Shown here piece after piece: positions 40,265 through 43,070 of a stretch of DNA of 64,000 bases. The position numbers and the translations under genes were made by a program. Origin of the DNA: Arthrobacter alkaliphilus (lineage in GTDB: Bacteria > Actinomycetota > Actinomycetes > Actinomycetales > Micrococcaceae); assembly GCF_021483235.1 (NCBI RefSeq), contig NZ_JAKEEC010000020.1, positions 1 to 64,000 of the forward strand, in the 5' to 3' direction. The stretch's first letter is position 1. Every line of letters begins with the position of its first letter. A model generated the notes under the pieces. The model was not told where the DNA came from. It made no database searches and worked only from the letters and a program-made list of their open reading frames with translations.

Positions 40265-41902
40265 TCAGGCCCCGAGCGCGAGCTGAACCACCCGGACGAT
40301 GACCAGGACCATCGCGATCAGCAGGTACGTGCGCAGGACGGTCAGTCCGATCCGGCGCCCAGTGGACAGTTTCGGCGCGGTGAGCAGGGCAAGCGGGGGC
40401 ATCCGCCACGTGGACTGCTGTGACCGGTCGACGGCGTCGGGGCTCGGCGCAGCGGGATAAATCCGGCGGTAGACAAGGAACACCACTCCCGCGATGGCCG
40501 CGACGGCGCCACCTCCGATCAGGATCCCCAGGATGGCGCCCGAGCCCATGTCAGGGAACAACACCCCGGCGGTCAGAACCAGCGAAAGGAGCACCAGGAC
40601 AGCGATCACGGCCGAGGTGAAGAAGTTCATGAACCGCCCGTTCACCCACGGACCCAGCACCTGCTTGTCATTGCAGAGCAGCAGCAGGAACACGGTGGCC
40701 GAGGGAAGAAGCACCCCGGCCAGCACCTGGACGCCCACCGTGAGCAGACCCAAAGGGCTGCCCGGGATCAGGACCACAATGGCCGAGAGGAGCAGGACAC
40801 CGGCGAACACCGCGTAGAAACCCTTGGCGTCGGACACTTTGCGGTGCAGGGAGTGCTTGAGCCCAAAAACATCACCGAGAGCGTAGGAGGTGGAAAGCCC
40901 GACGGCGGCTGCCCCGATGATCGAGGCATCGATCAGTGCCAGCGCGAACAAGACGCCGGCAACCTTTCCGACGTGCTGTTCGAGGCCGACGGCGACTCCG
41001 CCCGCGTCCGTGAAGTTGCCGAACTCCGGGGTGCCGGCAAAGGTCGCCGCGGTGAAGGAAATGATCGCTGCGGCGCCCACGACGACAATAACGATTCCCA
41101 GCCAGAGATCGGCCTTCTCGTACTTCAGGAACCGGGGAGTGATGCGCTTGTCGATGATGTAGGACTGCTGGAAGAACAGCTGCCACGGAGCTACGGTGGT
41201 TCCCACGATCCCGATGACCAGCAGCGTCACGGTGGACAGGTCCGCGCCCTGGGGCATGCCAGGCACGACGAAGTCGTGGGCGACTTGTCCGAGGTCGGGG
41301 TGGACCATGAAGATGATCGGCACCAGCAGCAGCGACCCGGCCACGAGCGCCAAGCAGACACGCTCGAAACGCTTGAAGGAACCAGTGCTCGCGGCGGCCA
41401 CGATCACCACTGTGGCCAGGAGAATTCCGGGGATCTTGGGGATGCCCAGGTAGTCCAGGCCCAGGCTGATCCCGATGAATTCGGTGACGATGGTCAAGGC
41501 GTTGAGGATGAAGAGGTCGATGACGCTGAACGCGCCCCAGAACTTGCCGAACCGCTCGAGGATGAGCCGGGCATGTCCCACGCCGGTGACTACCCCCAGG
41601 CGCAGCACCATTTCCTGGTTTACGTACAGCACCGGGACCAGCAGCAGCAAAGTCCATAGCAGTGAGGTTCCGTAGTTCTGCCCGGCTTCGGAGTAGGTGC
41701 CGAACGCGCCGGCGTCGTTGTCGCCGACCATAACGATCAGCCCGGGTCCGATGATCGCCAGCAAGGTCTTCAGGCGCGCTTTGATGCCGGAGCGCTGCTT
41801 TTCGTCGTTGAGACGGATGGTGCCGAAAGCACCCTCGATGTCACCGATGTGGGCGGTGTCCAGGGCTGCGGTGGGAGCTGGCATGGTCTTGGTCTCGGTC
41901 AT
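40265..41902 (-). CDS. Nramp-related divalent metal transporter, probably Mg2+
   Basis: 545 residues, 11-12 membrane helices, Nramp family. In helix 1 the canonical DPGN is DAGA (D63-A-G-A66) and in helix 6 the canonical MPHN is APWQ (GTTVAPWQLFFQQS), so the metal-binding Asn and Met are both Ala while the Asp is kept. Loss of the soft Met ligand is the pattern described for Nramp-related magnesium transporters. The M-box-like leader at 42213-42380 points the same way. The ATG at 41902 is preferred over the long upstream frame, which would run into the riboswitch. The C-terminal ~80 residues are an extra helix and tail. Confidence 0.82.
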   Translation of the reverse strand: MTETKTMPAPTAALDTAHIGDIEGAFGTIRLNDEKQRSGIKARLKTLLAIIGPGLIVMVGDNDAGAFGTYSEAGQNYGTSLLWTLLLLVPVLYVNQEMVLRLGVVTGVGHARLILERFGKFWGAFSVIDLFILNALTIVTEFIGISLGLDYLGIPKIPGILLATVVIVAAASTGSFKRFERVCLALVAGSLLLVPIIFMVHPDLGQVAHDFVVPGMPQGADLSTVTLLVIGIVGTTVAPWQLFFQQSYIIDKRITPRFLKYEKADLWLGIVIVVVGAAAIISFTAATFAGTPEFGNFTDAGGVAVGLEQHVGKVAGVLFALALIDASIIGAAAVGLSTSYALGDVFGLKHSLHRKVSDAKGFYAVFAGVLLLSAIVVLIPGSPLGLLTVGVQVLAGVLLPSATVFLLLLCNDKQVLGPWVNGRFMNFFTSAVIAVLVLLSLVLTAGVLFPDMGSGAILGILIGGGAVAAIAGVVFLVYRRIYPAAPSPDAVDRSQQSTWRMPPLALLTAPKLSTGRRIGLTVLRTYLLIAMVLVIVRVVQLALGA

Positions 41903-42180
41903 GATGTACCGGCTTTCTGCCCGGAACGGGCACAAAAAGTCGTGGACAAGCCTCACCGGACCGAAGGCGCGGCGGGCGTCATTGCATAAGGGTTTGCGTG
42001 GGGGCACGGCGAGTGCCGGCTGGTTCAGTCCCGAGTGGATCACGCACGGCTGTTACCGAAGCAATCAGCGCAGGGCCTCAGGAGGCTGGAACAGGATCCG
42101 GAAAACGGGACGGGAAACAGGGATTATCACCATCGTTCATGATGGAACCGTCACCTCCCGCTGCCGTTGGACGCGCCGCG

Positions 42181-42215
42181 GGGAGGGCGGGCATAAAGGC
42201 CCGCAATGCCCCTCC
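42181..42215 (-). terminator. strong hairpin downstream of the M-box (expression platform candidate)
   Basis: On the minus-strand RNA, GCGGGC and GCCCGC close a CTTTAT loop, and GGAGG...CCTCC extends the stem with a bulge. It begins where the 3' side of the M-box P1 helix ends, so the two structures may exclude one another. There is no U tract, so termination would be Rho-linked or the hairpin may act otherwise. Confidence 0.45.
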
Positions 42216-42380
42216 TCGTAAGACCTTTGGCACTTCGCGGCGTGAACCCGGACTGTGTCCAGGAGCCAATCGGGACCGCCCCTTATGCCGGAGCGGCCTG
42301 TCCTGACCCGGGGCGTCTCTCGACGTTGGGGGTCGCTGGCATGTTTCCGCGAAGGAGCCTCAGCTAACGAACGGCACCTT
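42213..42380 (-). promoter_or_regulatory. M-box (ykoK leader) magnesium riboswitch
   Basis: The minus-strand RNA carries the M-box consensus in order: GTTAGCTGAGGCTCC (42367-42353), then GGAAACATGCCAGCGACCC, then CGTCGAGAGACGCC, then GGGTCAGGACAGG, then GGCATAAGG, and near the end AGTGCCAAAGGTCTTACGA, which pairs back to the first segment to close P1. The aptamer lies 311 bases upstream of the Nramp-like ATG. M-boxes bind several Mg2+ ions and turn off transporter expression when magnesium is ample. Confidence 0.82.
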
Positions 42381-42384
42381 GCTT

Positions 42385-42412
42385 TATATATGTATACCTC
42401 ATTTTGCCGCAA
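42385..42412 (-). promoter_or_regulatory. promoter of the M-box/Nramp transcript
   Basis: TTGCGG (42412-42407) and TATATA (42390-42385) are separated by 16 bases. The expected start near 42378 is the first base of the riboswitch fold, a good internal check. Confidence 0.6.
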
Positions 42413-42554
42413 TGAAAAAATATAAGCATGGATGCAGATAACGCCGGGGTACGGCCGGGAGCCGCCAGCCAGGCCGGATTGGCGGCGCTCGGCCCGTCCG
42501 TTCGCAGTTTCCACATAAGACAGAATGTATCTTGAGGAACTGAAGGGAAGTGTG

Positions 42555-43070
42555 ATGGGAACGAAACCGGCTCAAACATCCACGCTCGACCGGACATTTC
42601 GCGTGAGCCTCATCCTGAAGGGCCTGGACGGTGTCCTGGAACTGATCGGCGGCATACTGCTTTTGCTGATCAAGCCCGAACAAATCGGTGATCTGGTCCG
42701 GTTACTTACCCAGCACGAGCTCGCCCGTGATCCGAACGATTTCCTGGCGAACAGTTTGGTGCACATGAGCTCCAACCTCTCAGGTTCGGGGACCCTGTTC
42801 GGTGCGATCTACTTGCTGCTCCACGGACTCATCAAAATCGTCCTGGTCTGGGCCGTCCTGAAGGACCAACTCTGGGCCTACCCGTGGATGATCGCATTCC
42901 TACTGGTGTTCATCGTCTACCAGGTGTATCGGATCGTGGTCGCCTTCTCGTGGGGACTCGTCCTCCTGACGGCGTTCGACATCTTCATCGTGTGGATCAC
43001 CGGACGTGAGTACCGGCTGCGCCGGACAAAGAATCAACAGCACTCCCCCGCGTCCAACCCGGCCGAATAG
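42555..43070 (+). CDS. DUF2127 family membrane protein
   Basis: 171 residues with four predicted membrane helices (~20-40, 78-97, 103-122, 128-148). The opening DRTFRVSLILKGLDGVLELIGG and the later HGLIKIVLVWAVLKDQLWAYPW are typical of DUF2127, a family of unknown function. The ATG at 42555 follows AAGGGAAG; the in-frame ATG at 42525 has no such site. Divergent from the Mg transporter. Confidence 0.8.
   Translation: MGTKPAQTSTLDRTFRVSLILKGLDGVLELIGGILLLLIKPEQIGDLVRLLTQHELARDPNDFLANSLVHMSSNLSGSGTLFGAIYLLLHGLIKIVLVWAVLKDQLWAYPWMIAFLLVFIVYQVYRIVVAFSWGLVLLTAFDIFIVWITGREYRLRRTKNQQHSPASNPAE

Follow-up and report, generated by a model that had tools for sequence, protein, structure and literature searches.

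Magnesium-responsive leaders and the Arthrobacter locus

Leader RNAs that place a transporter gene under a Mg2+ riboswitch (the M-box) or under a short acidic leader peptide have been described in several bacteria, in papers that are cited here for the parts of them covered. The M-box-controlled NrmT of Clostridium acetobutylicum, an Nramp-related protein, was shown experimentally and complements Mg2+, but not Mn2+, transport (PMC4072509). In mycobacteria, the M-box controls a short open reading frame (ORF), uORF2/Rv1805A, which has a proline at position 7 (Pro7) and was called specific for mycobacteria, via a translational platform, with Rho ending transcription early (PMC12810186). MgtL and MgtQ are acidic leaders in Mg2+ control; ribosome drop-off at low Mg2+ has been described for MgtL (PMC11282234), and slowed or dropping ribosomes have been proposed for MgtQ (PMC8092293). 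Here, we analyzed a stretch of 64,000 nucleotides (nt) from Arthrobacter alkaliphilus (contig NZ_JAKEEC010000020.1 of assembly GCF_021483235.1, positions 1 to 64,000; hereafter, the window), in which an M-box and a 20-codon leader ORF precede an nrmT-like gene. On balance, we lean toward the reading that two sensors control a Mg2+ importer at this locus, one being the M-box and the other an acidic/proline leader peptide that resembles MgtL and is decoded slowly. The features on which this reading draws are the following:

42205 to 42378, minus strand: M-box (Mg2+) riboswitch aptamer, RF00380, a complete match by cmscan
42151 to 42159, minus strand: Shine-Dalgarno (SD) sequence GGGAGGTGA of the leader ORF, read directly and scored in the leader-ORF search
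42078 to 42140, minus strand: SD-led leader ORF of 20 codons, MNDGDNPCFPSRFPDPVPAS, of a kind found after 157 of 192 M-boxes
40265 to 41902, minus strand: nrmT-like gene for 545 amino acids, Nramp family but with the metal-binding Asn and Met replaced, from profile, structure-relative and tree evidence

M-box and NRMT-like protein

An earlier note, made from the letters of the window, had read a full M-box leader at 42213-42380. The RF00380 search bore out the element and moved its ends by a few bases (42205-42378, minus strand; model positions 1 to 169 of 169; 115.7 bits versus the gathering score of 44; E value 4.1e-26), and a score so far above threshold suggests that it senses magnesium. 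The aptamer lies about 300 nt from nrmT. A second M-box in the same genome (121.1 bits) stands upstream of a paralogue that shares 80% identity with the window protein. Among 192 sampled Actinomycetota M-boxes, 66 had an NrmT-like gene in sense downstream; the genomes for this sample were drawn from larger groups, with stricter filters above 40 genomes, and a partial match, a below-cutoff match, a 59.6-bit match and four duplicate loci were dropped from it. The pairing, which the earlier note had supposed to be possibly uncommon, is therefore not new: it has been in print since 2014 and is frequent in Actinomycetota. A close NrmT was found in 14 of 197 genomes of the family Micrococcaceae, and by coordinate comparison an M-box lay just upstream of all 16 close NrmT genes in these genomes, a count that leaves aside a match of 38% identity and a fragment at a contig start. 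One genome (G091) had two M-boxes, L004 and L014, with very similar leaders; at L014, neither a leader ORF nor an NrmT turned up in the stretch, so that it is perhaps a decayed duplicate.

The window protein matched PF01566 with 282.6 bits (cutoff 29.8; E value 5.7e-84). Its start is probably the ATG at 41902 and not the GTG at 42043, because the alignments of its nearest relatives begin at the former. Both ligand replacements read in the earlier note, DPGN to DAGA and MPHN to APWQ, are present (NDAGAFG and TTVAPWQLFF), with Ala at both ligand places, and the DxxN and A/CxxM ligands of canonical Mn/Fe Nramps are absent. The best solved relative was EleNRMT (PDB 7qia, E value 3.6e-54), followed by 10ky (2.9e-28), with other MntH structures at 1.4e-16 or weaker. 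When aligned with Nramp and NRMT sequences in a tree of 17 rows, the window protein stood apart from the canonical Nramps, including the MntH of its own genome and 10ky, with support of 100/99; the canonical rows and EleNRMT form long branches in this tree, which leaves the fork between the window protein and EleNRMT without resolution. The NRMT signature has been given as DxxG in helix 1 and TxxA/T in helix 6 (PMC8806188). The window protein has the latter (TTVAPW), and we call it NRMT-like and not a strict NRMT because DxxA replaces DxxG. Its genome holds five Nramp-family genes: two NrmT-like, one canonical MntH (DPGN/MPHA) and two of a third type (DDDPSG).

The earlier note had seen two lines pointing to magnesium, and both held, one as the M-box score and the other as the nearness to EleNRMT and the tree; from them, we infer the transport specificity. 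The identity of the window protein as a Mg2+ importer is thereby supported at the level of sequence, and the inference of the earlier note was sound, the same inference having been published already. It could be argued that the protein chiefly takes up Mn2+/Fe2+, or divalent ions in general, and that the M-box answers another ion. The NCBIfam MntH model matched below its cutoff and the general Nramp model above it, the first motif departs from the one printed for NRMT, and a NrmT relative of Acidobacterium, which has no riboswitch, rescued Mn2+ transport (PMC4072509). Set against this are the separate canonical MntH in the genome, a nearest solved relative that is a Mg2+ transporter, and the M-box in front of every one of the 16 close relatives from the family, with which such a specificity appears improbable.

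A leader ORF follows most of the M-boxes

Between the M-box and nrmT, where the earlier note mentioned no ORF, a 20-codon ORF runs from 42140 to 42078 and starts 64 nt past the aptamer. Its beginning, MNDGDNP, has D3, D5 and P7, an acidic/proline start as in MgtL-like leaders, and it resembles mycobacterial uORF2 in being a short SD-led ORF after the aptamer with Pro7, a residue that not all ORFs of the wider set have (it is missing, e.g., in L001 and L013). Picking the start codon with the best SD sequence 15 to 190 nt after the aptamer, blind to codons and peptide, we found an SD-led leader ORF after 157 of the 192 Actinomycetota M-boxes. Within the class of the window genome, 147 of 174 M-boxes had one, and 132 of 174 had one with at least one AGT codon.

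The genes behind an M-box and a leader ORF encode NrmT, MgtE, MgtC, P-type ATPases, CorA and ABC proteins. Leader ORFs, and leader ORFs with AGT, respectively, preceded NrmT at 56 and 48 of 59 loci, MgtE at 20 and 13 of 30, MgtC at 9 and 6 of 15, P-type ATPases at 13 and 13 of 15, and PPE genes at 10 and 10 of 13, with target names resting on one scanned representative each and, for MgtE, on a below-cutoff match to a fragment and reading by eye. By majority, the assigned targets are Mg2+ transporters and not serine genes.

The peptides were compared in a non-redundant set of 69 leader ORFs (each genus and downstream-gene cluster represented once, class families only), which lie at a median of 88 nt from the aptamer and have 7 to 75 codons (median 24). 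While their C-terminal parts vary, many share polar starts such as MSSGDSP, MDSDSPGRS, MPDDSRS and MNDGHKP: 67 of the 69 start strongly polar, 56 have an acidic residue at positions 2 to 6, and 44 combine an acidic residue at 2 to 7 with a proline at 2 to 10. The ORFs of a Mycobacterium-like genus, which precede PPE and class I tRNA-synthetase genes, match the uORF2 traits by position, SD sequence and Pro7. Identified in this way, ORFs of the same build occur outside mycobacteria, and therefore the restriction of uORF2 to that genus does not hold.

Eleven M-boxes precede one membrane-gene cluster, of which two scanned members match ABC permeases (PF00528), one with two PF00528 stretches and thus apparently a fused double permease. 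Nine of these M-boxes had a leader ORF, all nine with AGT. An ATPase follows the permease in L350 (6480-4693 and 4655-3339, minus strand; ABC_tran and AAA_assoc_C) and, by eye, in L351 (669-2405 and 2434-3783). These permease and ATPase operons possibly encode an uncharacterised ABC-type Mg2+ importer.

In-frame AGT codons mark the leader ORFs

In codons 2 to 12 of the 69 leader ORFs, AGT made up 104 of 754 codons, which is 84-fold higher than in the downstream genes (25/15462) and about 38 times higher than at 560 ordinary SD-led gene starts (22/6160; Fisher p 2e-80). The signal was almost confined to the reading frame (104/754, 3/685 and 3/685 in frames 0, +1 and +2), also in each of three well-sampled families taken separately (11/1/0, 45/2/2 and 45/0/1), and it was synonymous, with AGT providing 104 of 182 serine codons in the leader ORFs versus 25 of 786 in the downstream genes. 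Counted in any frame, AGT occurred 48.6 times per kb inside the leader ORF, 5.1 times upstream and 4.1 times downstream. At least two AGT codons were present in 88 of the 157 leader ORFs versus 0 of 151 SD-led ORFs of the locus flanks, where an SD match of at least 6 was required, as against at least 5 for the leader ORFs. Single leaders had up to three AGT codons in the 69-ORF set and four in the named loci described below, sometimes in tandem. Other codons were also enriched, mostly in frame (frames 0/+1/+2): CAT (36/4/7), TAT (14/2/4), TGT (9/4/0), AGA (9/1/0), AAA (9/4/2) and GAT (37/10/4). Because the AGT signal is in frame, synonymous and strong, decoding appears to be the selected property, which means that the passage of the ribosome through the leader would be under selection.

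Three simpler causes were considered for the codon pattern. Codon rarity as the whole cause was rejected in its simple form, as TCA, ATA and CTA are not enriched like AGT; peptide conservation as the whole cause was rejected by the synonymous bias and the frame test; and a frame-independent nucleotide motif was rejected by the frame counts for AGT, with no such rejection for CGA. A pattern scan of the window's own genome for AGT-led starts gave 60 matches versus 81 in the reversed control, i.e., no excess with this loose pattern.

If the leader ORF were instead a functional small protein, e.g., a transporter partner as proposed for Rv1805A, the conserved N-terminal pattern would be expected, and Mycobacterium tuberculosis indeed has a copy outside the M-box context, Rv0115A (PMC12810186). 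A protein would not feel a synonymous choice as extreme as that of AGT among the serine codons, and the variable C-terminal parts and lengths and the strongly polar starts of 67 of the 69 ORFs likewise speak against this idea, which we regard as decidedly improbable. An amino-acid attenuator sensing seryl-tRNA through its AGT codons would fit the several, partly tandem AGT codons of single leaders; it seems scarcely credible given that rare codons of other amino acids (CAT, TAT, TGT and AGA) are enriched too and that most assigned targets are Mg2+ transporters. A possible but tentative reading is that sensing takes place as the ribosome decodes AGT in frame and further slow codons, with acidic and proline residues contributing, which would make the leader a codon-encoded magnesium attenuator.

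NrmT loci with no detected M-box

A search with the window protein through named genomes yielded the 80 best NrmT loci among the matches listed, the top one being that of Arthrobacter sp. B2a2-09 (94%). An M-box was present at 31 of the 80. A leader ORF was found at 30 of these 31, with AGT at 73 of 330 codons and frame counts of 72/0/0, and since 5 of the 31 loci recur unchanged in the first set, the named set is not fully independent of it. No M-box was detected at the other 49 loci at the gathering score; a permissive search of 12 of them found none either, the remaining 37 having been searched at the gathering score only. An SD-led ORF with an acidic and polar start and at least one AGT lay within 750 nt upstream, in sense, at 16 of these 49 loci (controls: 1 antisense, 0 and 0 downstream), and the same fixed rule found such an ORF at 29 of the 31 loci with an M-box (controls: 0, 0 and 0), the rule having been written after candidates were seen. 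By record title, nine of the 16 loci are actinomycete and seven proteobacterial, with some being metagenome bins whose taxonomy may be wrong.

At one Streptomyces locus with no detected M-box (L273), the leader ORF is MDGSCSSPGHSWPVRMSSSTSGTR, with four AGT codons. By eye, three other Streptomyces loci (L293, L295 and L296) have an apparent 3' M-box end without the core, and L282 has an apparently decayed M-box. Proteobacterial NrmT leaders include MNDGPSRL, MDEGPSCP and MDSDSYP, and also MPDPEPC, which is without AGT. It is conceivable, though tentative, that the leader ORF senses Mg2+ by itself, before NrmT in both Actinomycetota and Proteobacteria and after actinomycete M-boxes with many different targets, the M-box being an exchangeable second module.

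These loci also bear on the explanation in which the M-box is the sole sensor and the leader ORF merely the first gated ORF, whose translation keeps Rho away and whose codons slow ribosomes without sensing Mg2+. Such an arrangement closely matches the mycobacterial data, with a translational platform, Rho and uORF as the regulated ORF (PMC12810186), as well as the absence of a detected intrinsic terminator in the leader, and slow codons would lengthen the protection. It fails to explain why, among the 49 NrmT genes where an M-box was not detected, 16 have such an ORF, or why 56 of 69 leader ORFs start acidic, and we consider it rather unlikely.

Near the presumed promoters of L276, L281, L310 and L327, NrmT loci with no detected M-box, palindromes of the type ACTTGCGCAAGT or GTTGCGCAAC are visible by eye, and a longer inverted repeat occurs in L273 and L284; these repeats give the impression that a repressor protein has taken the place of the aptamer. 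Four Burkholderia-type NrmT loci (L313, L317, L322 and L323) have a chain of small ORFs upstream: an AGT-rich ORF LDSCSSRPSKSFSA or a close relative of it (not seen in L322), then MPDPEP... and, before nrmT, a conserved short protein M-FALLVSQLP....

Promoter and folding of the leader RNA

Four further features of the leader were placed:

42385 to 42396, minus strand: AT-rich -10-like stretch TATACATATATA, by direct reading, just upstream of the aptamer
42209 to 42217, minus strand: purine strand of P1, GAGGAGGGG, candidate SD1 or anti-anti-SD, by direct reading and in the position of the PMC12810186 model
42187 to 42204, minus strand: hairpin GCGGGC-CTTTAT-GCCCGC after the aptamer, in the predicted fold
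42180 to 42186, minus strand: CCTCCCC, candidate anti-SD, by direct reading

The promoter that the earlier note had placed with its start on the first base of the M-box is borne out in part. By eye, TATATA at 42390-42385 would give that start; a scan for consensus promoters gave no sigma-70-type site where 0.2 would be expected, and the window is among the four own-family loci that lack the exact TAnnnT pattern, a hexamer ending 5 to 12 nt before the aptamer in 29 of 33 (background 1.8%). A consensus scan for intrinsic terminators found none in the leader. Exclusive pairing of SD1, anti-SD and SD2 is visible by eye in the window and is not above shuffles over the 69 leaders, which are GC-rich; as a conserved switch, it was rejected as a statistical signal and is kept here only as a model from PMC12810186. 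SD1 was paired in the predicted folds of 63 of 69 leaders versus 88% in controls, which is no signal. Over the 69 leaders, the hairpins after the aptamer were only modestly, and weakly so, longer than in shuffles. In a MAFFT alignment of 25 own-family leaders, the variable hairpin was not brought into register.

Proposed mechanism and observations against it

In the mechanism that we propose, the M-box would sense Mg2+ and gate the ribosome-binding site of the 20-codon leader ORF. The first 10 or so leader codons, being acidic, rich in proline and serine, and slow or rare, may make ribosomes slow or prone to drop off, and this slow decoding with acidic and proline residues would lead to pausing or drop-off more often at low Mg2+, as described for MgtL. 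Such an event might set the downstream fold or the access of Rho, so that the progress of the ribosome through the leader ORF would decide transcription and translation into nrmT, probably via Rho. Accordingly worded, we infer four things here: translation of the leader ORF in the organism, its Mg2+-responsive decoding, the direction of control, and the part of Rho.

Several observations weigh against this two-sensor reading. The window ORF itself has no AGT codon and carries GAT, GGT, GAT, AAT and TGT instead; the leader ORFs of its close relatives L007, L010 and L265 have one AGT each. Outside the class, only 10 of 18 M-boxes had a leader ORF, 4 with AGT, and within it, 27 of 174 had no detected ORF, including five own-family M-boxes directly before MgtC. 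Under the fixed rule, 33 of the 49 NrmT loci with no detected M-box lacked a leader ORF. Among the codons, CGA was enriched over the reference without frame specificity (24/25/44), TCA, about as rare as AGT, was barely enriched (3 versus 1.4 expected), ATA and CTA showed no enrichment, and TTA was enriched with only 3 codons. The cobalamin-riboswitch control supports the reading in its outcome, since its 30 loci gave 7 short SD-led ORFs and none of their 69 codons was AGT, but it was small and came from another family; 41 own-family genomes contained no cobalamin riboswitch. On the RNA side, the hairpin stretch of the window was not more stable than its shuffles (z 0.66), and the SD1/anti-SD/SD2 duplex energies of the 69 leaders did not differ from dinucleotide shuffles (mean z of -0.19 and -0.02).

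A conserved stretch upstream of the M-box

Seven own-genus NrmT loci with an M-box (L001, L002, which is the window, L003, L007, L009, L010 and L012) share the stretch TTATCTGCATCCATGCTTATATT-N-TTTCAT-N8-AATGAGGTATA (42379-42442 in the window). A divergent ArsR/SmtB-family gene begins within this stretch in L001 and L009, and the C-terminal His/Glu spacing of its product resembles that of the Ni/Co sensor KmtR. The corresponding feature of the window is the following:

42428 to 42442, plus strand: what is left of the beginning of a divergent arsR-type gene, encoding MDADN, with the same start as the intact ArsR-family gene that L001 and L009 have in this position

Because no more than the first five codons of this gene are left in the window, an operator may persist without an adjacent regulator. 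The divergent gene adjoining the M-box in the window (42525-43070, plus strand) encodes a DUF2127 membrane protein (PF09900).

Comparison with known systems

An M-box before NrmT and an M-box followed by a uORF in mycobacteria are both known already. In the open-access literature, we found no description of the spread of the leader ORF through Actinomycetota and farther, of NrmT leaders without a detected M-box, of the in-frame AGT signature, or of a codon-encoded magnesium attenuator.

In the window, as at the C. acetobutylicum loci Ca_c0685 and Ca_c3329, an M-box stands in front of a gene whose Nramp-related product falls outside the canonical Nramps (PMC4072509). That paper names mostly Clostridia and Deltaproteobacteria and describes M-box control mostly by intrinsic terminators, and the parts of it covered contain no leader ORF in the account of this NrmT; the window, in contrast, is from an actinomycete, has a leader ORF, and showed no intrinsic terminator. 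With EleNRMT (7qia; PMC8806188), the window protein shares the TxxA motif and the change of the helix 6b His to Trp, and it differs in its DxxA instead of DxxG and in its longer ends (545 amino acids).

As in mgtL and mgtQ of enteric bacteria, a short ORF with an acidic or proline N terminus stands before the gene of a Mg2+ transporter, in the window a putative one (PMC11282234, PMC8092293). The sequences differ, the parts of those papers covered do not mention an M-box, and drop-off at low Mg2+ is described there for MgtL.

The closest build is that of the M. tuberculosis pe20/rv1535 leader, where an M-box is followed by an SD-led short ORF with Pro7, uORF2, and then the operon (PMC12810186). 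In the parts of that account covered, rare codons are remarked on for uORF1 only, whereas the ORFs analyzed here carry the AGT signature and occur in other families and before more targets. A peptide that had been taken as specific for mycobacteria, and whose role is unclear, is thus joined to a class-wide element in which the signature points to selection on decoding by the ribosome, and because some natural versions apparently have no aptamer, what the aptamer does and what the peptide does should be separable in tests.

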